Shown here piece after piece: positions 14,926-28,428 of a stretch of 64,000 nt of DNA. The stretch lies in the NCBI RefSeq assembly GCF_030758935.1, contig NZ_CP132333.1:3906992-3970991 (forward strand). The letters are read 5' to 3'. This DNA comes from Geothrix sp. PMB-07 (GTDB lineage Bacteria > Acidobacteriota > Holophagae > Holophagales > Holophagaceae). Made by a program: the position numbers and the translations under genes. Within the stretch, counting starts at the first letter, position 1, and each line of letters opens with the position of its first letter. The notes under the pieces were generated by a model, which saw only the letters and a program-made list of their open reading frames with translations, ran no database searches and was not told the DNA's origin.

Positions 14926-15330
14926 TCAGCGCGCCGCCGACACCCTCGTCAGGTGGGCCTTCACCTCGGCCAGCCGCTCGGGCAGCACGGCCACGAACAC
15001 CGTGTCATCACCGGCCAGGGTGCCCATGAGGCCGGGCACGGGCTCCGCATCCAGGCTCAAACCCAGGGCCTGCGCGAAACCCGGCGCCGTGCGCAGCACC
15101 AGCAGGTTGGGCGGCACCTCGGTGATGGTGACCTCGGGCAGCAGCTGGGCACTGGCCTCCACGCGGCGGTAGTGCCCCTGGACCTTCTGAACCCCCAGCC
15201 GCTTGAGACGACGGGAGAGGGTGGACTGGGTCAGCTCATGCCCCTGGGCCGCCAGGCGCACCAGCAGATCCCCCTGATCGGTGATGGGCGAAGCCTCCAG
15301 CAGGTGGAGGATGAGGGCGTCCAGATCCAT
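14926..15330 (-). CDS. argR: Arginine repressor ArgR
   Basis: DNA-binding regulator of arginine genes, 134 residues from ATG 15330 (MDLDALILHLLEA). The N-terminal winged helix (LTQSTLSRRLKRLGVQKVQGHY) matches the ArgR recognition region. The C-terminal half is the hexamerisation/arginine-binding domain, with GTLAGDDTVFVAV resembling the G-T-(I/L)-A-G-D-D-T motif. Neither ATG 15330 nor the in-frame ATG 15345 has a Shine-Dalgarno sequence, so the message may be leaderless. The start codon lies inside a TGCAT-type inverted repeat, consistent with autoregulation. It is divergent from argD and controls the operon that follows. Confidence 0.92.
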   Translation of the reverse strand: MDLDALILHLLEASPITDQGDLLVRLAAQGHELTQSTLSRRLKRLGVQKVQGHYRRVEASAQLLPEVTITEVPPNLLVLRTAPGFAQALGLSLDAEPVPGLMGTLAGDDTVFVAVLPERLAEVKAHLTRVSAAR

Positions 15331-15355
15331 GCATGAATGATGCATGAAATTGCAT
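15330..15355. promoter_or_regulatory. Candidate ArgR operators over the argR start
   Basis: Two overlapping inverted repeats of TGCAT half-sites: TGCATGAATGATGCA (15330-15344) and ATGCA-N6-TGCAT (15340-15355). They cover the argR start codon. The half-site recurs at the argD promoter, so they are probably the ARG boxes of this organism, though they differ from the TGAAT half-site of E. coli. Confidence 0.55.
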
Positions 15356-15405
15356 ACATCAACAACCAGGAGTTCCAGAACAATCGAATTCACAGGAATT
15401 TCATC

Positions 15406-15438
15406 TTGTATTGCCATATCAACAGTGCATAATATGCA
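15406..15438 (+). promoter_or_regulatory. argD promoter with operator over the -10 box
   Basis: A sigma70-like promoter: TTGTAT at 15406-15411, 16 nt, CATAAT at 15428-15433. The perfect odd palindrome TGCATAATATGCA (15426-15438) covers the -10 box. Further half-sites (TTATGCACA, GCGCATATGCACA) follow to 15480. Repression of the arg operon by ArgR here is inferred from the position. Confidence 0.55.
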
Positions 15439-15491
15439 ATCAGCCGCTGGATTATGCACACTCCATGCGCGCATATGCACAGGATGCCCGC

Positions 15492-16640
15492 ATGACCGTC
15501 ACCCTTCCCAGTCCCGCCCTGCTCCCCACCTATGCGCCCTACCCCTTTCCCCTGGTGCGGGGCGAGGGCGACCGGGTCTTCGACGATCAGGGCCAGGGCT
15601 GGTGGGACTTCTACGGCGGCCACTGTGTCTGCGCCACGGGCCACAGCCACCCCAAGGTGGTGCGGGCCATCGCTGGCCAGGCCGCTTCGCTGCTGTTCTA
15701 CTCCGCCGCCGCAGCCCTGCCCGTGCGGGATCAAGCGGCCGCCGCCATCACCGCCTTCGCGGGCATGGATTCCGTCTTCTTCTGCAACAGCGGGGCCGAG
15801 GCCAACGAAAACGCCCTGAAGCTGGCCCTGCTGCTCACGGGCCGGAAGACCCTCGGCGCCTTCCAGGGGGGCTGGCACGGCCGCACCCTCCTGGCCCTTT
15901 CCGTCACGGACGATCCGAAGATCACCGAGCCCTTCGCCGATCAGCTGGTGCCCTGTCGGCGCCTTCCCTTCGGCGACCTCGCAGCCCTGGCCGCGGCTGA
16001 TTTCTCCGACCTGGCCGGCGTCATCCTCGAGCCCATCCAGAGCATGGCCGGCATCAAGACCGCCTCCCGCGAGTGGTTCCAGGCCCTGCGCGCCAAGTGC
16101 GATGCCTCTGGCACCCTGCTCATCTTCGATGAGATCCAGACGGGCATGGGCCGCCTGGGAACCCCCTTCGCCGCCCAGTACTACGGTGTCCGTCCCGACC
16201 TCATCACCTCCGCCAAGGGCCTGGCCTCCGGCGTGCCCATGGGTGCCTTGCTGATGACGGCCGCCGTGGCCGCCAGGCTCAAGGGCGGCTACCTGGGCAG
16301 CACCTTCGGCGGCGGTCCCCTGGCCTGCGCGGCCCTGCTGGCCACCGTGGACGTCATCAACCACGAGGGGCTGATGCCCAATGCCATGGCCGCTGCGGCG
16401 CGCCTGCGCTTGGAGCTGAAGGGTTCGGTGGTCACCGAGGTGCTGGGCGAGGGCCTGCTGCTGGGCCTACGCAGCGCCCATGCCGCGGCTCTCAAGAAGC
16501 ACCTCCTCGCCCATCACCTCCTCGTCGGCGGCTCGGGCGATGCCTCGGTGCTGCGCCTCATGCCCCCCCTCAATGTCAGCGGCGAGGCCCTGACCGCGCT
16601 CATCACCGCCATCTACGCCTTCCAGCCGGAGTCGAAATGA
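15492..16640 (+). CDS. argD: N-acyl-ornithine aminotransferase (ArgD)
   Basis: PLP-dependent class III aminotransferase converting N-acylglutamate semialdehyde to N-acylornithine. It is 382 residues from ATG 15492 with AGGA seven bases upstream; earlier in-frame ATGs fall in the operator region. Family marks are FCNSGAEANENALKLA near residue 100, IFDEIQTGMGR (PLP-contacting Asp) near 210 and the PLP lysine in TSAKGLASGVPMGA. The usual family length is 390-400. It is first in the arg operon; the stop overlaps argF' by four bases. Acetyl or succinyl substrate form is undetermined, because of the transcarbamylase downstream. Confidence 0.92.
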   Translation: MTVTLPSPALLPTYAPYPFPLVRGEGDRVFDDQGQGWWDFYGGHCVCATGHSHPKVVRAIAGQAASLLFYSAAAALPVRDQAAAAITAFAGMDSVFFCNSGAEANENALKLALLLTGRKTLGAFQGGWHGRTLLALSVTDDPKITEPFADQLVPCRRLPFGDLAALAAADFSDLAGVILEPIQSMAGIKTASREWFQALRAKCDASGTLLIFDEIQTGMGRLGTPFAAQYYGVRPDLITSAKGLASGVPMGALLMTAAVAARLKGGYLGSTFGGGPLACAALLATVDVINHEGLMPNAMAAAARLRLELKGSVVTEVLGEGLLLGLRSAHAAALKKHLLAHHLLVGGSGDASVLRLMPPLNVSGEALTALITAIYAFQPESK

Positions 16641-17629
16641 AGCACTTCACCCGCATCTCCGACCTGGGCCCCGCCGGGGTCAAGGAGATCCTCGCCACCG
16701 CCGCCACCTGGAAGCAGAACCGCCCCGGCGCCATCTTCACCGACCGCATCCTGGGCATGGTGTTCTTCAATCCCAGCCTGCGCACCAGGGCCAGCTTCGA
16801 AGCGGCCATGCTGCGCCACGGCGGCCACGCCATCGTGCTGGAAGTGGGCGCGGGCACCTGGAAGCTGGAGGACCGCGACGGCGCCATCATGAACGAGGAC
16901 CGCGCCGAGCATGTGCGCGAGGGCGTGCCCGTGCTGGGCCGCTACGCGGACCTGCTGGCTGTGCGCACCTTCAGCCACGGCAACGGGGATGCGGAAGACG
17001 AAGTCGATCCCGTCATCAACGCCTTCCGCCGCTTCTCCACCGTGCCCGTGCTGAGCATGGAAAGCGCCCGCGAGCATCCCCACCAGGGCCTCGCCGACCT
17101 GCTCACCATCCAGGAGGCCCACGGCAGCACGAAGGTGCCCGTGACCCTCACCTGGGCGCCGCACATCAAGCCCCTGCCCAAGGCCGTGCCCAACTCCTTC
17201 CTGCTCACCGCCGCGGCCTGCGGGGCCGAGATCCGCGTGGCCCATCCCAAGGGCTACGAACTGAGCGCCGAGGTGCGGGCCGAGGCCGAAGCCTATGCCG
17301 CCGCCACCGGCGGGAAAATCACCTACACCAACGACCAGGACGCCGCCCTCGAAGGCAGCGCCGCCGTCTACGCCAAGGCCTGGGGCCCCTCCACGCAGTC
17401 CGGCCTGACCGCCGCGCCCATGGCCGACCTCGGCGCCTGGATGCCCACCGCCGCGCACATGGAGAAGGCCGCCAAGGAGGCCATCTTCACCCACTGCCTG
17501 CCGGTGCGCCGCAACCTCGAGGTGCACGACAGCGTCCTCGATGGGCCGTGGAGCCGCGTGGTGGACGAAGCCGAGAACCGCTTCCACGTGCAGCGGGCCA
17601 CCATCCACCACCTTCTTTCCCAGTCCTAA
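16637..17629 (+). CDS. argF': N-acetyl/N-succinyl-ornithine transcarbamylase (AOTCase/SOTCase, ArgF')
   Basis: Transfers carbamoyl phosphate to N-acylornithine, giving N-acylcitrulline, in place of ordinary ornithine transcarbamylase. It is 330 residues: carbamoyl-phosphate loop SLRTR (47-51), HPHQ (147-150, where most relatives have HPCQ), TWAPHIKPLPKAVPNSF (about 172-188, as in Bacteroidetes SOTCase) and HCLPVRRN (286-293). By my alignment the residue matching Xanthomonas Glu92, which separates acetyl from succinyl specificity, is Ala90, and the position of the carboxylated Lys302 is Glu295. So acetyl versus succinyl cannot be settled. It overlaps argD by four bases; the argB start is 31 nt downstream. 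Confidence 0.9.
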   Translation: MKHFTRISDLGPAGVKEILATAATWKQNRPGAIFTDRILGMVFFNPSLRTRASFEAAMLRHGGHAIVLEVGAGTWKLEDRDGAIMNEDRAEHVREGVPVLGRYADLLAVRTFSHGNGDAEDEVDPVINAFRRFSTVPVLSMESAREHPHQGLADLLTIQEAHGSTKVPVTLTWAPHIKPLPKAVPNSFLLTAAACGAEIRVAHPKGYELSAEVRAEAEAYAAATGGKITYTNDQDAALEGSAAVYAKAWGPSTQSGLTAAPMADLGAWMPTAAHMEKAAKEAIFTHCLPVRRNLEVHDSVLDGPWSRVVDEAENRFHVQRATIHHLLSQS

Positions 17630-17659
17630 CCGATCCGCCCTGTTGATTCCGAGGTTGTG

Positions 17660-18589
17660 ATGCCGCTCTCCCCGAACCCCTACGCCGCCCTCAAGGAAGC
17701 CTCCCAGTACGTCCGCCTCTTCCGCGGCAAGACCTTCGTCGTGAAGGTGGGCGGCGACGTGCTGTCCGAAGCCAAGATCCGCAAGGCCCTCTGCGAGCAG
17801 ATTGCGCTGCTGTGGTCCTTTTCCATCCGCGTGGTGCTGGTGCACGGCGGCGGTTCCGAGCTGGATGCCGTCTGCGAGGCCATGCACATCCCCATCGAGA
17901 AGGTGGCCGGCCGCCGAGTGACCAGCCCCGAAGTACTCGATGCCGCCAAGATGGTCTTCGCGGGCCAGGTGCACATGGATCTCCTCGCCGATCTCCAGGC
18001 CTCGGGTGTCCCTGCCGTGGGGCTCACCGGTCTGGATGCAGGTCTGGTGAAGGCCCATAAACGACCGCCAGTCCCCGTGGTGCCCGATGGTGCCACCGAA
18101 CCTCAGTTGGTAGATTTTGGTCTCGTGGGCGACATCGATGCCATCGACCCCCACGTACTCAGCCACCTGCTCGAAGGAGGGTTCGTGCCGGTGGTGGCGC
18201 CGCTCTCGGGAGGCGAGGACGGCGCCATTTACAACACCAACGCCGATACCATCGCGGCCAGCCTGGCCGGGGCCCTGGGCGCGGAGAAGCTCTTCTTCCT
18301 GCTGGCCGTGCCGGGCCTGCTCAAGGACATCAGCAAGGCGTCCTCCCTCATCCCCCATGCCACCCTCGAAGAGTTGGCGGGTTTTGAAGCCAGGGGCATC
18401 ATCAGCGGGGGCATGCGGCCCAAGCTCGCGGCGGTGAAGGCCGCCCTGTCGGCTGGTGTGCCCAGCGCTCACCTGGTGAGCGGCTTGGCCCCCGACGCCC
18501 TGCTGGCCGAGATCTTCACCAACGAGGGCAGCGGCACCATGCTCGTACCGGGAAGCGTCCCGGGCCTCGCCACCGGAGTTGCCGGATGA
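17660..18589 (+). CDS. argB: N-acylglutamate kinase (ArgB)
   Basis: Phosphorylates N-acetyl- (or N-succinyl-) glutamate with ATP. It is 309 residues from ATG 17660 with GAGG five bases upstream; the GTG one codon earlier is too close to that site. Amino-acid-kinase fold marks are VVKVGGDVL (ATP site), LVHGGGSELD (substrate Gly loop), GRRVTSPEVLD and the ATP/Mg part around YNTNADTIAASLAGAL, then ISGGMRPKLAAVKAAL. Length and order are normal for ArgB. An N-terminal extension of about 20 residues (NPYAALKEASQYVRLF) recalls the extra helix of arginine-sensitive hexameric kinases, so feedback inhibition is plausible. The stop overlaps the next gene by four bases. Confidence 0.92.
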   Translation: MPLSPNPYAALKEASQYVRLFRGKTFVVKVGGDVLSEAKIRKALCEQIALLWSFSIRVVLVHGGGSELDAVCEAMHIPIEKVAGRRVTSPEVLDAAKMVFAGQVHMDLLADLQASGVPAVGLTGLDAGLVKAHKRPPVPVVPDGATEPQLVDFGLVGDIDAIDPHVLSHLLEGGFVPVVAPLSGGEDGAIYNTNADTIAASLAGALGAEKLFFLLAVPGLLKDISKASSLIPHATLEELAGFEARGIISGGMRPKLAAVKAALSAGVPSAHLVSGLAPDALLAEIFTNEGSGTMLVPGSVPGLATGVAG

Positions 18590-19665
18590 GCCCCGAAGAA
18601 CTCCTCACCCTGCTGGTGGGCACCCCCAGTGTCTCCGGCGAGGAAGGTCCCATCGCCGACCTGGTGCAGGATCTCCTCATCAGCAGGGGTTTCGCGGTGC
18701 AGCGCCAGGGACACAACCTCTGGTTCTCCTTCGGCACCCCGGGCGGCGCTCGCCTCCTGCTCAATTCCCACCTGGACACCGTGCCGCCCTGTGCGGGGTG
18801 GGAGGGCGATCCCTTCACGCCCGTATGGAACGGATCGCGGCTCCAGGGCCTGGGCTCCAACGATGCCAAGGGCTGTGTTACCGCCATGCTGCTGGCGGCC
18901 TTCGAGCTGTCCAAGCAGAAGGTGGATGGCGAAGTGGTGGTGGCCCTCAGCGCGGAAGAGGAAACGGGCGGCAAGGGCATTGCCACCATCCTCGATCAGC
19001 TGGGCCCCTTCGATGGCGCAGTCGTGGGCGAGCCCACGGGCTTACGCATCTGCGCCGCCCAGCGTGGCATGCTCCTGCTGAAGTGCACAGCGCGCGGCAC
19101 CAGCGGCCACGTGGCCAATGCGCAGATGCTGGGGGCCGAGAACGCCATCCACAAAGCCGCCCGGGACATTTCCAAAATCGCCGTCATGGAATTCCCGCCC
19201 CATCCGTTGCTGGGCTCCCAGAAAGCCCAGGTCACCCAGATCCAGGGCGGCCTGCGGCGCAACCAGGTGCCCGATGCCTGCGAGTTCTTCATCGACCTGC
19301 GCACCAGCCCCGACCAGGATCACGACGACCTTGCGGCCTCCTTCCAGCGCCAGCTGGAAAGCGAAGTGGCCATCCACTCCAAGCGCTACCTGCCCAAGGG
19401 CACGGATCCCGACCACCCCATCGTCCGCGCCGCGCTCCAGGCCGCGGGCAAGGCCGGGCCCGTGGGATCCGGCACCACCTCCGACTGGGCCTTCCTGGGT
19501 GGCATCCCCGCCGTGAAGGTCGGCCCCGGCGACACCTTCCGCAGCCACAGCCCCAACGAATACCTCACCCTGCCCGAGCTCGAAGCTGGCGCCGCCTTCT
19601 ACACGAACCTCGCCACCACCTTCTTCAAGCTACAGACGGCCAAGCACGAAGCAGGTGCCCGATGA
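18586..19665 (+). CDS. argE: M20-family N-acyl-citrulline/ornithine deacylase (ArgE-like)
   Basis: Zinc-dependent deacylase, 359 residues. Metal ligands and motif regions are NSHLDTVPP (H62, D64), GLGSNDAKG (D93) and the catalytic ALSAEEETGG near 122-131. In a pathway using an N-acylornithine transcarbamylase, the substrate would be N-acylcitrulline, released as citrulline for argG. The surroundings GLGSNDA and SHLDTV resemble the deacylases found in Bacteroidetes arginine operons. It overlaps argB and argH by four bases at each end, so expression is tightly coupled. The acyl group (acetyl or succinyl) is unknown. Confidence 0.87.
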   Translation: MSPEELLTLLVGTPSVSGEEGPIADLVQDLLISRGFAVQRQGHNLWFSFGTPGGARLLLNSHLDTVPPCAGWEGDPFTPVWNGSRLQGLGSNDAKGCVTAMLLAAFELSKQKVDGEVVVALSAEEETGGKGIATILDQLGPFDGAVVGEPTGLRICAAQRGMLLLKCTARGTSGHVANAQMLGAENAIHKAARDISKIAVMEFPPHPLLGSQKAQVTQIQGGLRRNQVPDACEFFIDLRTSPDQDHDDLAASFQRQLESEVAIHSKRYLPKGTDPDHPIVRAALQAAGKAGPVGSGTTSDWAFLGGIPAVKVGPGDTFRSHSPNEYLTLPELEAGAAFYTNLATTFFKLQTAKHEAGAR

Positions 19666-21020
19666 AGCCAGACGGAACAACACTCTGGGCCAAGGACCTG
19701 CCGCTGGATGTGGCCATCCACCGCTTCACCGTGGGCGATGATCCGGATACCGATCTGACCCTGCTCCCCTGGGATGCCCTGGGCAGTGCCGCCCACGCGA
19801 AGATGCTGGCCGCCACGGGGCTGCTGGATTCCGCCGACGCCGCGGCCCTGGTGCGGGGCCTCAAGCGCATCGCCAACCTCGCCAAGCAGAATGCCTTTCC
19901 CATCCCGCCCCACCTGGAAGATGGCCACACTGCCATCGAAGCGGATCTCACCCGCAGCTTGGGGCCCGTGGGGCAGCGCATCCACTTGGCCCGCTCGCGC
20001 AACGACCAGGTGATCCTCGCCTTTCGGCTCTACCTGCGCGATGCCCTGCTGCGACTGGGCCTGAGGGTGTCCGATCTGGCGGCGGCCTTCCTTGCCTTCG
20101 CCCGCGATCATCAACACGTGGCCCTGCCCGGCTACACCCACCTGCGGCGTGCCATGCCCAGCACCTTCGGCATGTGGGCTGCGGCCTTCGCCGAGGGCCT
20201 GCTGGAGGAACTGGAAGCTCTGCAGTCGGTCTACCAGCGGCTCGACCGCTGCCCGCTGGGATCAGCCGCGGGCTTCGGCGTGCCCCTGCCCATCGACCGG
20301 GCACTCACGGCCAAGCTGCTGGGCTTCTCCAAGGTGCAGTGCAGTCCCATCGATGTGCAGAACAGCCGGGGCCGTCATGAGACGGCGCTGCTGCAGTGGG
20401 CCGCCTCCACCGGCGGTGTGCTGGAAAAATTCCTGTGGGACGTGTCCTTCTACAGCACCGAAGAATTCGGTTTCCTCAAGCTGCCGGATGCCTTCACCAC
20501 GGGCTCGAGCATCATGCCCCAGAAGAAGAACCCCGATGTGGTCGAACTGGCCCGGGGCCGCTGTCGCGAGCTGCGGGGCACTGCAGGCCTGGTGGATCAG
20601 ATCGGATCGGGCCTGCCCTCCAGCTACCACCGCGACCTCCAGCTGCTGAAGCGCCCCGTGATCATGGGTCTGCGCCAGGCAGACGAGCTGTTCGGCGTGC
20701 TGGTGCGGCTCATCCCCGCTCTGAAAGTGAACGCCGAGGCCACTTCCGCCGCCAGCACCGACGAGCTTTACGCTGCCCATCAGGCCTATGTGTACGTGCA
20801 AGGCGGCCTCCCCTTCCGCGAGGCCTACCGCAAGGTGGCGCAGCAGATCCAGGAGGGCACCTTCGCTCCCGATCGCGCAGCCCTCACCGCCACCCACTTG
20901 GGCGGCGCTGGGAATCTGGGCCTGGACGACCTCGCCACGGAGCTCATGCAGGCCCGCGCCTGGATCGAGGCCAAGCGGGACATCCATGCGGAAGCCGAGG
21001 TGGCGCTGTGGGCGAACTGA
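19662..21020 (+). CDS. argH: Argininosuccinate lyase (ArgH)
   Basis: Splits argininosuccinate to arginine and fumarate. It is 452 residues from ATG 19662, which overlaps the deacylase stop (ATGA). Superfamily signature GSSIMPQKKNPD (catalytic Ser loop) lies near residue 285, the substrate-binding SRNDQV near 110 and GYTHLRRAMPSTFG near 155, where the more common wording is TH.QRAQP. Normal length. The frame is open far upstream in another gene, but only this start makes sense in the operon. It is followed by a repeat element before argG. Confidence 0.93.
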   Translation: MKPDGTTLWAKDLPLDVAIHRFTVGDDPDTDLTLLPWDALGSAAHAKMLAATGLLDSADAAALVRGLKRIANLAKQNAFPIPPHLEDGHTAIEADLTRSLGPVGQRIHLARSRNDQVILAFRLYLRDALLRLGLRVSDLAAAFLAFARDHQHVALPGYTHLRRAMPSTFGMWAAAFAEGLLEELEALQSVYQRLDRCPLGSAAGFGVPLPIDRALTAKLLGFSKVQCSPIDVQNSRGRHETALLQWAASTGGVLEKFLWDVSFYSTEEFGFLKLPDAFTTGSSIMPQKKNPDVVELARGRCRELRGTAGLVDQIGSGLPSSYHRDLQLLKRPVIMGLRQADELFGVLVRLIPALKVNAEATSAASTDELYAAHQAYVYVQGGLPFREAYRKVAQQIQEGTFAPDRAALTATHLGGAGNLGLDDLATELMQARAWIEAKRDIHAEAEVALWAN

Positions 21021-21132: not shown

Positions 21133-22320
21133 ATGAACAAGCTCGCCGTCCTCGCCTTCTCCGGCGGTCTCGACACTTCCTTCTGTGTGCTCTACCTCAA
21201 GGAGCAGGGCTACGACGTGGCCACGGTCACCGTGAACACCGGCGGCTTCTCGCCCGAGGAACTGGCCCGCATCGAGGCCGCCTCCCCCAAGCTGGGCGCC
21301 ATCAGCCACACCACGGTAGATGCCCGCGCCGGACTCTTCGACGGCTACCTCCGCTACCTGGTTTACGGCAATGTGCTGCGCGGCCAGATGTATCCCCTGT
21401 CGGTGTCGGCCGAGCGTGTCTGCCAGGCCCGCGCCGTGGCCGAGCTGGCCAAGGAGATGAAGGCCGCTGCCATCGCCCACGGCTCCACGGGCGCAGGCAA
21501 CGACCAGGTACGCTTCGACGTGGCCTTCCGCGCCCTGGCCCCAGAGCTGGAGATCCTCACCCCCATCCGTGACCTGGGCCTGTCCCGGGCCGAGGAGATG
21601 GCCTACTGCGCCGAGCGGGGCTTCCCCTTCCCCGAGAAGACCAAGGACTACTCCATCAATGAGGGCATGTGGGGCACCAGCGTGGGCGGTCGCGAGACCC
21701 TCGATGCCTGGAGCACCCTGCCCGAGGCGGCCTTCCCCGGCGGAGTGATCGGCTCCCTGGCGCCCAAGACGCTCACCATCAGCTTCGATCAGGGTGTGCC
21801 CGTGGCCCTGGACGGCAACGCCATGGATCCGGTCACGCTCATCGCCCAACTCAACGCCGTGGGCAAGGTCTACGGCATCGGCCGCGGCGTTCACCTGGGC
21901 GACACCATCCTGGGCATCAAGGGCCGCGTGGGCTTCGAGGCCCCCGCCGCGCACCTGCTCACCGGCGCGCACCGCGAACTGGAGAAGCTCGTACTCAGCG
22001 GCAAGCAGCTCTTCTGGAAGGAGTCCTTGGGCAACCTCTACGGCTCACTGCTGCACGAGGGCCACTTCTTCGATCCCCTGGCCCGCGACCTGGAAGCCTT
22101 CCTGCAATCCAGCCAGGATCGCGTCTGCGGCGAAGTGCGGCTCACCCTGCATCCGCGCACCTTCGTGGTGGAGGGCGTGCAGTCCCCCTATTCGCTGATG
22201 GACCCGCGCATCGCCACCTACGGCGAAGCCAACAAGCTGTGGACCGGCGCCGAAGCCGCAGGCTTCGCCAAGGTCTTCGGCGTCCAGCAGACCCTCACCC
22301 TCAAAGCCAAGCCCAACTGA
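21133..22320 (+). CDS. argG: Argininosuccinate synthase (ArgG), Bacteroidetes-like type
   Basis: Joins citrulline and aspartate with ATP to argininosuccinate. It is 395 residues from ATG 21133 with GAAGGA six bases upstream. The PP-loop is AFSGGLDTSFC (residues 8-18), followed by AHGSTGAGNDQVRFD (citrulline/aspartate site, about 117-131) and DYSINEGMWGTS (about 175-186). Wording such as NTGGFSPEELARIE and GNVLRGQMYPLSVSAER resembles the argG of Bacteroidetes more than that of proteobacteria, in line with the acyl-citrulline pathway around it. Separated from argH by the inverted repeat and from the next gene by 15 nt. Confidence 0.93.
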   Translation: MNKLAVLAFSGGLDTSFCVLYLKEQGYDVATVTVNTGGFSPEELARIEAASPKLGAISHTTVDARAGLFDGYLRYLVYGNVLRGQMYPLSVSAERVCQARAVAELAKEMKAAAIAHGSTGAGNDQVRFDVAFRALAPELEILTPIRDLGLSRAEEMAYCAERGFPFPEKTKDYSINEGMWGTSVGGRETLDAWSTLPEAAFPGGVIGSLAPKTLTISFDQGVPVALDGNAMDPVTLIAQLNAVGKVYGIGRGVHLGDTILGIKGRVGFEAPAAHLLTGAHRELEKLVLSGKQLFWKESLGNLYGSLLHEGHFFDPLARDLEAFLQSSQDRVCGEVRLTLHPRTFVVEGVQSPYSLMDPRIATYGEANKLWTGAEAAGFAKVFGVQQTLTLKAKPN

Positions 22321-22335
22321 TCACCCGAGGCACCC

Positions 22336-23388
22336 ATGAGAATCCACGTCGACAAGCTCGCCTCCGTCACCCGCAACCTGCGGCTGGGCCGCACCCTCAC
22401 GCTGGGCAGCGAGATCCTGCTCGAAGAAGGCTCCGTCATCGCCTGCCGCGTGCGGGGCGAAAAGAGTACCTACAACCAGCTGGAAGATCCCTACGGCCGC
22501 ATGAGCACGCTGCACGACGGCGACATCCTCGTGGGCGCCCTGGGCCACCGGAACGCGCTGCAGGGCTATGAGGGCGCCATGCCCACATCCTTGAAGCCCG
22601 GCGACACCGTGAACCTGCTCAACATGGGCGGCGTCATCGGCCAGTGCCTGTCGCACAACCCCGACGTGGGCAAGCCCTTCGAGCTGGAGGTGCTGGGCCA
22701 GGTGCTGGTGTTTCCCGAATTCCAGTCCCGCGCGGGCCAGTCGGCCCACATCCGCATGGGCGCCCTCAAGGGCACAAGCCTTTCCGCCCACTGCCCGGTG
22801 GTGTACGTGGCAGGCACCTGCATGAACGCGGGTAAGACTGCTGCCGCCTGCGCCACCATCCGCCAGCTGAGCCGTGCGGGCTATCGAGTGGGCGCCTGCA
22901 AGCTCACGGGTGTCTCCCTCATGCGCGATGCCCTGGCCATGCGGGACTACGGTGCCGAAGTTGCGCTTGATTTCACGGATGCCGGCATCACCTGCACCGA
23001 TGCGGGCAGCGCTGCGGGCGTGTCGCACATCATCTTTTCGGAGCTGGCCTCCCATGGCGTGGATGTCATCGTGGCCGAAACCGGCGACGGCATCATGGGT
23101 GAGTACGGCGTGCAGGCCATTCTGCAGGATGCCGAGCTCATGGCCCTCAGCGGCGCGTTCATCGTATGCGCCAACGACCCTGTGGGCGCCGCCGGAGCCG
23201 TCCACAACCTGAGCTCGACCTACGGCATCAAGACCGACCTGGTGGCGGGCCCCGCCACAGACAACCGCGTGGGTGAGCGCTTCGTGGCCACCCTGGGCCT
23301 GCCCGCCCGCAACGCCCGCGCCGACGCCGAAGCCCTCGGCAAGTTCGTGCTCAACCTCCTCGAGCCCAGGCTCGCGTCCAAGGTCTAA
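22336..23388 (+). CDS. P-loop protein of unknown function in the arginine operon (DUF1611/DgcN- or dethiobiotin-synthetase-like)
   Basis: A 350-residue protein with two parts. Residues 1-150 are a beta-rich domain without an evident motif. From 155 on there is a SIMIBI-type P-loop fold: Walker A GTCMNAGKT (160-168), CKLTGVSLMRD, an acidic segment (VDVIVAETGDGIMGEYG) and a possible base-recognition region (FIVCANDPVGAAGA). The order resembles DUF1611 proteins, of which DgcN is reported as a D-glutamate N-acetyltransferase, and dethiobiotin synthetase; I judge this by eye. It lies between argG and argC in an operon with every arginine step except N-acylglutamate synthesis. A role in that first step is an attractive but unproven inference. 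Confidence 0.72.
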   Translation: MRIHVDKLASVTRNLRLGRTLTLGSEILLEEGSVIACRVRGEKSTYNQLEDPYGRMSTLHDGDILVGALGHRNALQGYEGAMPTSLKPGDTVNLLNMGGVIGQCLSHNPDVGKPFELEVLGQVLVFPEFQSRAGQSAHIRMGALKGTSLSAHCPVVYVAGTCMNAGKTAAACATIRQLSRAGYRVGACKLTGVSLMRDALAMRDYGAEVALDFTDAGITCTDAGSAAGVSHIIFSELASHGVDVIVAETGDGIMGEYGVQAILQDAELMALSGAFIVCANDPVGAAGAVHNLSSTYGIKTDLVAGPATDNRVGERFVATLGLPARNARADAEALGKFVLNLLEPRLASKV

Positions 23389-23398
23389 GGATTTTGGT

Positions 23399-23510
23399 CC
23401 ACAGATTCCACGGGTGTCACAGATTCAAAAGCTTCCGTTTTTCATCTGTGTGAATCTGTGAAATCTGTGGATGACCTTCTATTTGTGAGCCCAAATGAAA
23501 TCTGTGGATG
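23399..23510. repeat. CACAGATT-type inverted repeat reaching into the argC start
   Basis: Left arm 23399-23431 (ccacagattccacgggtgtc...) and right arm 23443-23470 (ending gaaatctgtgg) form an imperfect inverted repeat. The 15-mer tgaaatctgtggatg at 23459-23473 is repeated exactly at 23496-23510, where it makes the first codons of argC (ATG AAA TCT GTG GAT). The motif resembles dispersed repeats of the form cacagattncacagatt found in many bacteria. Confidence 0.75.
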
Positions 23511-24493
23511 TCTTGATCCTGGGCGCTTCCGGCTACGGCGGCGGTGAACTGCTGCGGTGGCTCTCCAACCATCCGGCGATAAATTCCATTCGTGGCACGG
23601 CCCGCAGCCACGCGGGAAAGCCCTTTCATGCCCAGCACCCGAACTTGCGCGGGCTGATCGAAGGCACCTTCGAGGCAGCACCGGACTGGGTAGCCCTCAG
23701 TCAGAGTGAAGCCCCCGTGGTGTTTTCCGCACTGCCCCATGGCGAACTGGGCAAGCTGCGGCCCGAGTTCGAGGCCGCTTGGCAAGCGCATGGCTTGATC
23801 GACCGCCTCACCATCATCGATCTCTCTGCGGACTTCCGCCTGGATCCCACCTGGGTGTATGGCCTGGTGGACTGGAAGCCCGAGCGCATGAAGGGCGCCC
23901 GGCGCATCGCCAATCCGGGCTGCTTCGCCACGGCGCTGCAACTGGCGCTGCTGCCCCTGGCGGAATGGAAGCCCGCCTTCGTGGCCGTCACCGCGGCCAC
24001 GGGATCTTCGGGCTCAGGTGCGGCGCCCTTGGACACCGCCCACCATCCCACCCGAGCCAATGATTTCCGAGCCTACAAGATGCTCAGCCACCAACACGAG
24101 GCCGAGGTGCTGCGCACCCTCGCCACGGCGGGCTGGGAGGCGCCGCTCAGTTTCGTGCCGCAGAGCGCGCCCATGGTGCGGGGCATCTTTGCCACACTCC
24201 AATTCCCGCTTCCTGCGGGAATTGGAGAAGAGGCTCTTCGAGCTCATTTTGAGGCCTTCTACCGCGACCGCTTCTTCGTGCGGATGGTCGAGGGGTCGCC
24301 CCGGGTGGCAGCCACCACGGGCAGCGCCTTCGCCGATCTCAGCGTGGTGGCCCGCCAGGGTCATGGGGCCGTGCTGGTGGCCCTGGACAACCTGGGCAAG
24401 GGCATGGCGGCCCAGGCGGTTCAGAACCTGAACCTGGCCCTGGGCCTGCCCGAATGGACCGGCCTGAAGAACGCGGGCGGCTACCCCGCGTAA
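23495..24493 (+). CDS. argC: N-acyl-gamma-glutamyl-phosphate reductase (ArgC)
   Basis: NADPH-dependent reductase making N-acylglutamate semialdehyde, third step of the pathway. It is 332 residues: Rossmann motif LGASGYGGGELLRWL (9-23), the active-site cysteine in NPGCFATALQLAL (about 145) and the later HQHEAEV histidine loop. The start ATG 23495 lies inside a copy of the upstream repeat and has only a weak GAG six to seven bases ahead, so the repeat may have reshaped the original start. Last gene of the arg cluster. A perfect 12-bp inverted repeat lies in its codons 235-244. Confidence 0.93.
   Translation: MKSVDVLILGASGYGGGELLRWLSNHPAINSIRGTARSHAGKPFHAQHPNLRGLIEGTFEAAPDWVALSQSEAPVVFSALPHGELGKLRPEFEAAWQAHGLIDRLTIIDLSADFRLDPTWVYGLVDWKPERMKGARRIANPGCFATALQLALLPLAEWKPAFVAVTAATGSSGSGAAPLDTAHHPTRANDFRAYKMLSHQHEAEVLRTLATAGWEAPLSFVPQSAPMVRGIFATLQFPLPAGIGEEALRAHFEAFYRDRFFVRMVEGSPRVAATTGSAFADLSVVARQGHGAVLVALDNLGKGMAAQAVQNLNLALGLPEWTGLKNAGGYPA
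24198..24226. repeat. Perfect 12-bp inverted repeat within argC
   Basis: TCCAATTCCCGC (24198-24209), loop TTCCT, GCGGGAATTGGA (24215-24226). It is translated in frame as part of TLQFPLPAGIGEE in ArgC. A hairpin this regular inside a coding region is unusual; it may be a small palindromic insertion tolerated at a variable surface site. Confidence 0.7.
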
Positions 24494-26011: not shown

Positions 26012-28381
26012 CTACTTTTTCAGCAGCGCCTTGATCTCGGCCAGATCCCGCTTCAGAGTGGCATTCTCCTCCTGCAGCGCCTTGAGCCGCCGTGCCAGCT
26101 CCTGGGTGGCGCTGATGTTCAGCGTGCTGAGCGCCTCGTAGTCCACCACCCGGAAATCCTTCACCTGAACGCCGTAGACAAAAACCTTCTCCTCCTCGCG
26201 GGGATAGTTGGCCACCACGAAATGGGTGGCATCCAGGACTTCGGCCACTGGCAGATCCTGGGCCCCCTTCGCCCCGATCAGACGGAGGGTTTCGCCGCCC
26301 TTCAGCCCGTGCGGCTCCGCCAAGCCAACCGTCAGTCGCCCTTCGGTGTAGCTGACCATGGCGCTCAACCGGTAGATGTTCGGCAGGAAATCCACGGTCT
26401 GCTTCACGGCGATGGGATAGACCGCCTCTACCTCCTGAGCGATGACCTTCTTGTGAATGGCATCGCCCCGCTGGAGCCGATCTTTGTACCGGTAATCCGT
26501 GATCTGGAGCTGCTGGAGTTTCTCCAGATCGGCGGCTCCATCCGAGCGGCCGACCACGTCCTTCACGCGGGCATCGGAGGTGGCCGCGAAGCTGGCGGCG
26601 GCGACATCGCCAGAAGCCCGGATGGAAACTGTATTCAAGGTGCCGTTGGTGGGGAGTCCAAAGGCCGGATCGTAATCAATCAGGAAATTCACACCGGTCA
26701 GCGTATTTCCCGTCACGGTGAGCGTCCCGCTGGTTGAGTTGTTCCCCGAGGCATTCCACCCCCCGCCCCCAGCCGCAGCCCAGCTGACGCCGCCGCTGCC
26801 ATCCGTGGTGAGGAACAGGCCGCCGTTGCCGCCTTGGCTGGGCAGCAGCGCGTTCAGCGCCGCCGAAGCAGTGATCGCGCCTGTGCCGCCATGGGCCACC
26901 GCCAGGGCTGAGCCGGACCAGTTGCCGTCGTTCACGTTGCCTAGTGTGGCCAGGGAACCCAGCCCCGACACACGAGCCACTGGCACCGTCCCTGTGGTGA
27001 TGGTGCCCAGGGTGGTGATGGCGGTGGAGCCTGCCCAGGTGGACAGGGCCGTGTTCTCCGCGTTGCCCAGGCCCACTTGGGCCTTCGTCAATCCGGTGAG
27101 GTTCGAACCGTTGCCCGAGGGCGCCAGGAAATCCGTACCTGCCACGGGAAGGCCCGTCAGACTGGCATAGGCACCCGTGGAAGCCACGGCGGCCAGCCCC
27201 AGGGCGGTGCGCGCATTGGCGGCCGAGTTGGCGCCCGTGCCGCCATTCGCGAGGCCCAGCACTCCCGTGACTTCGGTGCCGAGGTTGATGGCTGCGCCAT
27301 TGCTGGCCGCGGTCAGCCTTCCCTGCTGGTCCACCGTGAGGTTGGCGCGGGTATAGGCACCCGGGCTCACCGCCGTGTTAGCCAGGGAGATGGTTCCGCT
27401 GGTGGTGATGGGACCACCGGTGAGGCCTGTGCCTGTACCCACGCTGGTCACCACGGCGGTGCCGGTGTTCAGGCCGAACAGCGACCAAATGCCGCCATCA
27501 AACTGGTAGAGGCCGGCCGTCCCATCGGTCTGGTAGACCATCAGGCCCACCGCGGGCGAGGTGATGGCCGCGCGCTGGGCAGCGGTCATGCGGGGTGGCA
27601 GGAAACCCTTGGTCGTGCTGGTGAGATCCAGCAGGGCGCTGGCGGCGGGCGGGCTGATGCCCAAGCCGAGCGAGCCAGTGGTGAACACAGCGTTGGCGCC
27701 GTTCAGCGTGAAGGGGCTGGCCCCCGCGGGCCCAGTGGCACCCGTCGCTCCGGTGGCGCCCGTGAGCCCCTGGGGCCCGGGAGGTCCTGGAGGCCCCTGG
27801 GGCCCCGTTGTGCCCGTGCCAACAACGGTGCCAGCCACCCACTTCGTGCCATTGAACACCAGCGCCTGGCCACTGGCGGGCGCAGTGGTGGTTAGATCCA
27901 GGGTCCTGCCTTGCAGCTTTCCAACCAGCAGCTGGTTTTGCGTGCCGCTCAAGTCGCCCCCGAAGGCGCCCGTCACCTCCCAGGCACTGCGGGCCTGGAA
28001 GGCAGGCACGATGTCCACATCGGGTGCCAGGGCCTGACTTCCCATCACCACGTGCAGCTTCAGTCCGGCCTTGCCCAGCAGTGTCAGGGGCAGGGGCGGC
28101 ATGCCGGTGGTGCCCAGTACCACCCCGTAGAGGCCATCAGTTACGGTGAGAGTCTGTGGCCCGGAGTTCCATTGTTCGGTGCCTGCGCCATCCACCACGC
28201 TGAAGGTGAAGCTCCGCACCCCAGTGACCGCCACGGTACCCTCCATCAGCCGCCCCTGGTACGTGAGGGTGGGCAGGGGCGCGGGATCCGCCGCGAGGGC
28301 CAGGGTACGGGCCTGAAGGCCCGGCTGGACTGAGCCGACGATGAGGATGGCGAGGGTGGGCGTGAGGAAGGGGCATCGCAT
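26012..28381 (-). CDS. Secreted collagen-like protein with C-terminal S74 (intramolecular chaperone) domain
   Basis: A 789-residue surface protein from ATG 28381, with AAGGTG seven bases upstream; the open frame reaches a TTG five codons earlier. A signal peptide (about 1-25) is followed by a beta-rich N-domain, a short collagen-like Gly-X-Y stretch ([17 protein letters not shown]), then long tail-fibre-like repeats ([30 protein letters not shown]). At the C-terminus is a peptidase S74 domain with the Ser-Lys site SDARVK and the helix [14 protein letters not shown], ending in a coiled coil. S74 domains trimerise fibre shafts and then cut themselves off. No phage genes are nearby, so this looks like a cellular surface fibre, in a cluster with the next two genes. 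Confidence 0.85.
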
Positions 28382-28428
28382 GGCGTTCACCTTCAAAAGT
28401 CGGGAAGACTCGGCGGGGAGGAAAGGGG

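Follow-up and report, generated by a model that had tools for sequence, protein, structure and literature searches.

The window, that is, the whole 64,000-nucleotide stretch of DNA that was analysed, carries an arginine operon in which a gene for a P-loop protein lies between argG and argC. The genes of the operon and the parts of the P-loop protein are as follows.

14926–15480, minus strand: divergent argR, arginine repressor (Arg_repressor, both domains above the cut-off; frame taken from the first possible start)
15411–16640, plus strand: argD-type N-acylornithine aminotransferase (TIGR00707, below its curated cut-off)
16637–17629, plus strand: argF', N-acylornithine carbamoyltransferase (NCBIfam N-acetylornithine carbamoyltransferase model: 392.8 bits, cut-off 288 bits)
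17657–18589, plus strand: argB, N-acylglutamate kinase (amino acid kinase domain alone, without a NAT domain)
18586–19665, plus strand: argE-type deacylase (best NCBIfam matches below curated cut-offs)
19671–21020, plus strand: argH, argininosuccinate lyase (NCBIfam)
21136–22320, plus strand: argG, argininosuccinate synthase (NCBIfam)
22336–23388, plus strand: P-loop protein, proposed N-acyl(succinyl)-L-glutamate synthase (ATG start, ORF of 350 aa)
22813–22839, plus strand: Walker A codons of the P-loop gene, GTCMNAGKT, residues 160–168 (ORF translation, homologue alignment)
Residues 1–149 of the P-loop protein: beta-rich N-terminal domain (predicted structure)
Residues about 150–350 of the P-loop protein: SIMIBI-type P-loop domain (predicted structure; Walker A at 160–168, invariant acid E248)
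23495–24493, plus strand: argC, N-acylglutamyl-phosphate reductase (NCBIfam)

The P-loop gene begins 15 bases after the end of argG and is separated by 106 bases from the start of argC, which is itself trailed by an M20 peptidase gene (NCBIfam). Promoter and terminator patterns around the P-loop gene are few and are mere pattern matches. Adjoining the operon, on the minus strand at 26012–28396, lies the gene of a 794-aa protein that combines an S74 endosialidase chaperone domain with a collagen-like stretch (below the Pfam cut-off).

According to the first-pass annotation, argG and argC flank the gene of a 350-aa protein with this Walker A motif, and the operon holds argB, argC, argD, argF', argE, argG and argH but lacks argA, argJ and a GNAT-type synthase. 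The open reading frame and the NCBIfam matches of the neighbours agree with this description: neither ArgA nor ArgJ is encoded in the operon. The absence extends to the whole host genome (4.24 Mb, a single contig, 98% complete), in which no ArgJ was present and the sole match of the ArgA model TIGR01890 was ArgB (model positions 4–278). Every step except the first is thus covered by an operon gene, and the only gene left unassigned among them encodes the P-loop protein. By elimination and from this context, we infer that this protein forms N-acyl-L-glutamate.

Alternatively, the protein might be a P-loop NTPase with an accessory or regulatory role in the operon, and an unrecognised GNAT encoded elsewhere might make N-acylglutamate. 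The host genome yielded 20 Acetyltransf_1 matches, the role of which is unproven and which would leave room for such an enzyme. However, none of the 20 reached an NCBIfam cut-off, no NAGS model was listed for any of them at E 1e-5, and the window ArgB lacks a NAT domain.

Distribution of the P-loop gene and of known synthases

A single scan across the collected species genomes returned 159 relatives, of which the best 80 were taken as the locus set. Homologues at 60–96% identity are present in these 80 loci, which indicates that the P-loop ORF is a real gene. By record title, the loci belong to Geothrix/Holophagaceae, other Acidobacteriota, Myxococcota (Myxococcus, Corallococcus, Pyxidicoccus and Hyalangium), Gammaproteobacteria and Armatimonadota. 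A record of Myxococcus xanthus (L071) is among them; excerpts of an earlier study describe this species as lacking ornithine acetyltransferase and hence as dependent on NAGS (PMC1865377). Neighbours were identified with the window's ten operon genes as queries, and upstream the nearest match within 1.5 kb was scored. The nearest upstream operon gene was argG in 77 of the 80 loci (two contig edges and one argB make up the rest), and the nearest downstream operon gene was argC, again in 77 (two edges, one without a match); the gap between the P-loop gene and argC exceeded 400 bases in one locus. This steady placement between argG and argC across records of four phyla argues against an accessory NTPase.

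Two further observations concern individual records. In nine loci that are gammaproteobacterial by title (L044, L049, L052, L053, L060, L061, L068, L074 and L076), an argE match was absent from the fetched stretch, and argE may be divergent or located elsewhere in these operons. The P-loop protein of the record Comamonas sp. KCTC 72670 (L075, 9.0 Mb genome) is near-identical in the alignment to that of M. xanthus; the label of this record looks wrong, or the record mixed.

Among 197 Acidobacteriota genomes, 56 contained a P-loop homologue at E 1e-10. We treated as carriers the 50 genomes with at least 34% identity, leaving out six with only a 32–33% copy outside arginine operons. ArgJ was found in none of the 50 carriers, compared with 73 of the 197 genomes overall, and acyl-type ArgF' (180 bits or more, a line of our own) in 42 of the 50, compared with 50 of the 197; in these genome-level counts, related genomes are not independent. 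At the family level, the P-loop gene occurred in 13 and ArgJ in 23 of 66 families with zero overlap, for which the probability by chance is 0.0018 if families are assumed to be independent. From the 80 loci, we also selected 25 P-loop genomes, 22 of them not Acidobacteriota by title, and ArgJ was absent from all 25. This mutual exclusion at the genome and family levels also weighs against an accessory NTPase, a reading that we consider unlikely. G088, one of the 50 carriers, is doubtful: its copy is a fragment of 87% identity lying where a contig begins, the genome belongs to a distant family, and contamination is possible.

The survey for synthases covered the P-loop gene, ArgJ and ArgA (TIGR01890). 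TIGR01890 gave exactly one match in 40 of the 50 carriers, none in 3 and more than one in 7, and in these 7 a weak ArgA-like GNAT may be present; over the 197 genomes, the matches listed were mostly ArgB. Weak ArgA-type GNAT fragments, scoring at most 43.6 bits, were found in 8 of the 25 P-loop genomes. The P-loop gene keeps a steady place in an operon without ArgJ or another recognised synthase, with these weak GNAT matches and the five non-carriers described below as exceptions.

Several loci depart from the common arrangement. In four variant operons of distant carriers (L118, L152, L153 and L154), argC, argD and argB accompany the P-loop gene in a stretch without acyl-type ArgF', and two more (L119 and L151) also lack acyl-type ArgF' in the stretch, with argC not recognised. 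These operons suggest that the P-loop protein may also serve pathways with an ordinary ornithine carbamoyltransferase. A second branch of the family comprises nine Acidobacteriota loci (L142–L150) at 28–33% identity and outside arginine operons, and two of these nine paralogues adjoin a YheC/D-type ATP-grasp gene. Among the six genomes whose sole P-loop copy is a 32–33% homologue, three contain ArgJ.

In some genomes, the operon persists and the P-loop gene is missing. Within genus g39 of family f21, the gene is present in G035, G093, G101, G141 and G173, and absent from G125, G133, G157 and G165; G188, from another genus of the same family, also lacks it. All five non-carriers retain argC, argD, argF' and argB, and the ArgF' specificity site is Thr in each, as it is in five carriers of the family (L110–L114). 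ArgJ was absent from all five, and TIGR01890 matched each genome once, at ArgB. Another genome, with Pro at the ArgF' site (G116), likewise lacks the P-loop gene, and G072 is cut by a contig end. As an observation from the survey, five Acidobacteriota genomes (L102–L106) have an acyl-type arginine operon and none of the searched synthases (P-loop gene, ArgJ or ArgA-type).

We compared the GNATs of both groups, using the best 55 of 70 matches from the non-carriers G157, G133, G165 and G188 and the best 43 of 61 matches from the carriers G093, G173 and G101 (G125, G035 and G141 were left out), and found no convincing replacement synthase among these matches. Candidates were also weighed individually. 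The GNAT beside the G188 operon, which could have been a swapped-in synthase, was rejected, as it is of the RimI type (TIGR01575, 88.8 bits) and has counterparts at 43–51% identity in carriers and non-carriers of f21 alike. In G125, argF' and argB are separated by a gene of 181 aa, which was rejected as the replacement because it showed neither a family match nor a relative in the 17 other genomes searched. The GNATs special to the non-carriers of g39 fall by eye into a RimL/RimJ-like group and an AAC(3) acetyltransferase-like group, and were unconvincing.

Because no replacement was found, the five non-carriers may use another route, may need an outside source, or may indicate that the P-loop gene is dispensable. 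That they keep the operon, with no synthase found in their genomes, speaks for an accessory role of the P-loop protein. The proposal of the first-pass annotation that the gene supplies the missing N-acylglutamate synthase thus draws support from its place in the operon, from the exclusion of ArgJ and from the lack of a host ArgA match beyond ArgB, but is weakened by these five operons. For this reason, and because the function is predicted, our confidence in the synthase is moderate.

The acyl group and the ArgF' specificity site

We examined the acyl group through ArgF'. In an alignment, residue 90 of the window ArgF' is Ala, and the acetyl-type enzyme of Xanthomonas has Glu. At one column, the deposited chains of the Xanthomonas acetylornithine carbamoyltransferase differ, with Glu, Ala, Ser or Val, and such variation among chains of one protein indicates that the column is a mutated site, which we take to be Glu92. 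Shi et al. 2007 reportedly found that changes of Glu92 turn the acetylornithine carbamoyltransferase to N-succinylornithine; the Gln, Thr and Ile seen at the site in some P-loop operons go further than the changes reportedly made in that work.

In 65 P-loop loci, counted once per locus, this site was Ala in 50, Pro in 9, Gln in 3 and Thr in 3, and in 13 further Acidobacteriota carriers it was Thr in 5, Ala in 4, Pro in 2, Val in 1 and Ile in 1. Glu was therefore missing in all 78 P-loop operons read, which points to succinylated intermediates. The one Glu that we saw occurs in an Acidobacteriota genome without a P-loop match (G047), in which an acyl-type ArgF' with Glu at the acetyl site accompanies an ArgB fused to a NAT domain (L156:6068–7384; PF04768, 129.9 bits). 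The combination of a Glu-type ArgF' with a known synthase in this genome, compared with that of a non-Glu ArgF' with the P-loop protein, also suggests succinylated intermediates. Passages of published work describe an ArgB–NAT fusion in Xanthomonas that the G047 arrangement resembles (PMC1865377), and others propose succinylated arginine intermediates for Bacteroides (PMC7311316, PMC9026213).

As a variant of this reading, the product could be N-acetyl-L-glutamate made from acetyl-CoA rather than the N-succinyl compound. NCBIfam places ArgF' with acetylornithine carbamoyltransferase, and DgcN, which shares the P-loop fold (see below), is deposited as an N-acetyltransferase, both of which are in its favor. 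Given that the Glu of the acetyl site was found in none of the 78 operons, we regard an acetyl product as rather improbable. Our best reading is an N-succinyl-L-glutamate synthase of a new family, with N-acetyl less likely.

Fold, conserved residues and predicted reaction

The first-pass annotation had likened the architecture of the protein to DUF1611/DgcN, and this resemblance was upheld for one of the two domains. We built an AlphaFold2 model from 36 homologues (mean pLDDT 92.7) and compared it with solved structures using VIA. The P-loop domain resembled the DUF1611 structures 2g0t (Z 16.7, rmsd 3.2, 176 aligned) and 2obn (Z 15.0, rmsd 2.9, 174 aligned) and the DgcN structure 7xrj (Z 14.5, rmsd 3.3, 179 aligned). 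CTP synthase and BioD structures, at Z 14–16, were tied with DUF1611 among many tied rows, and BioD headed the Foldseek list (E 2.3e-6). Owing to this tie, the fold is compatible with an acyltransferase, a ligase and other P-loop functions alike. A structure search from the single sequence returned as best rows BioD and, at E 0.11–0.21, the PDB 'prenyltransferase' entries 9v4g–9v4i.

In contrast to this likeness in fold to both DUF1611 and dethiobiotin synthetase, the profile scores of the window protein missed both cut-offs: 15.9 bits for PF07755 (DUF1611) against the Pfam gathering cut-off of 25, and 13.9 bits for NCBIfam bioD against an equivalog cut-off of 83.3. Distant homologues scored 19.8 (L117, arginine branch) and 20.1 (L144, outside arginine operons) with PF07755. 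Neither a GNAT family (Pfam, NCBIfam) nor ArgJ PF01960 (Pfam) was among the matches of the protein, and Pfam gave no match ahead of residue 145. The N-terminal 149 residues, modelled separately (pLDDT 90.6), had a best Foldseek E of 0.79 and a best VIA Z of 2.8; such weak structural matches are no proof of a new fold, although one is possible, and DUF1611 structures beyond the rows listed may still match.

We further analyzed the conservation of residues. Every residue of the Walker A motif except A165 was invariant in the 36 aligned homologues, and across the 29 family members aligned, nine of them paralogues outside arginine operons, the Lys and Thr of Walker A and the acid E248 did not vary. 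R72, G166, K167, T168, K189, D198 and E248 are among the positions common to the arginine branch and these paralogues. S10, Y46, L75, G77, N96, C162, G250, G255 and Y257 are among those kept in 19–20 of the 20 arginine-branch rows and in at most two of the nine paralogue rows, and such branch-specific positions are candidates for substrate binding.

The P-loop protein is, in our estimation, probably the first enzyme of arginine synthesis: it would acylate L-glutamate at its amino group, most likely with succinyl, and so yield N-succinyl-L-glutamate as the substrate for ArgB. The donor would be an acyl-CoA whose diphosphate is cradled by the P-loop, the glutamate would be bound by the N-terminal domain and the residues specific to the arginine branch, and the succinyl identity of the acyl group is suggested by the ArgF' specificity site. 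We favor acyl-CoA transfer because DgcN (7xrj), an N-acetyltransferase according to its deposition, has this P-loop fold. The reported reaction of DgcN is the acetyl-CoA-dependent N-acetylation of D-glutamate.

The main chemical rival is an ATP-dependent N-acylglutamate ligase, as the residues usual for Mg-nucleotide binding are intact: the P-loop would bind Mg-ATP as in dethiobiotin synthetase, free succinate or acetate would be converted to an acyl phosphate, and glutamate would attack it. Besides the invariance of the Walker A Lys and Thr and of E248, this chemistry is favored by BioD, which tops both profile searches of solved structures as well as the Foldseek list, and by a very weak second alignment (0.7 bits) that pairs the E248 motif with the VEGAGG stretch of BioD. 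However, a Walker motif can also hold the diphosphate of CoA, and the deposited function of DgcN runs counter to a ligase, which we judge to be doubtful. The ligase overlaps with our best explanation, and the step is fixed more firmly than its chemistry.

If the predicted acylation of L-glutamate is correct, the P-loop protein would add a new isofunctional family to those known for this step. Arginine synthesis is commonly feedback-controlled at its first step, which also leaves a gap when arginine need is predicted from genomes, and this gap would be closed for groups such as Myxococcus and Geothrix. DUF1611-like P-loop proteins would gain a metabolic role besides D-glutamate use, and a Walker-motif protein, not a GNAT, could acylate an amino acid in primary metabolism.

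Comparison with known systems

The combination of a SIMIBI P-loop domain with an N-terminal domain of possibly new fold may define an undescribed family that has no relation to GNAT or ArgJ enzymes and catalyses N-succinylglutamate formation, the committed first step of arginine synthesis, in Acidobacteriota and Myxococcota as well as in some Gammaproteobacteria and Armatimonadota; we hold this to be about as probable as its opposite. In the open-licence literature, we found nothing that assigns this P-loop family a function. Overall, the first-pass annotation was probably right on the function and half right on the family.

DUF1611/DgcN proteins (7xrj, 2g0t and 2obn) have the fold of the P-loop domain in common with the window protein (Z 14.5–16.7), both have GK(T) in the P-loop and an acid further downstream, and the substrates would be related if the proposal holds. 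Nevertheless, the window protein falls below the Pfam cut-off of DUF1611, its N-terminal domain has no convincing match, and its gene lies in an arginine operon, whereas DgcN, in excerpts of published work, serves D-glutamate use (PMC10845958, PMC12363236).

Another proposed enzyme for this step is ArgA2 of Bacteroidetes (BT3761, Q8A1A5; N-succinylglutamate synthase), which would act in a succinyl-type arginine pathway, and passages of two papers present it as a proposed synthase within the Bacteroidetes arginine operon (PMC9026213, PMC7311316). It is likewise a replacement inside the operon; it is annotated as a GNAT, whereas the P-loop protein has no GNAT match. Sections of one of these papers give as published solutions for the first step the ArgA forms, ArgJ, ArgA2 (GNAT) and ArgA3, which is related to N-acetylcysteine deacetylase (PMC9026213). 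ArgA, short ArgA, NAGS–kinase fusions and ArgJ act at the same metabolic step as that proposed for the P-loop protein, but belong to the GNAT or ArgJ families. BioD and the amidoligase domain of CTP synthase are alike in their SIMIBI P-loop fold, and the P-loop protein differs from both in its additional N-terminal domain and in its place in an arginine operon.
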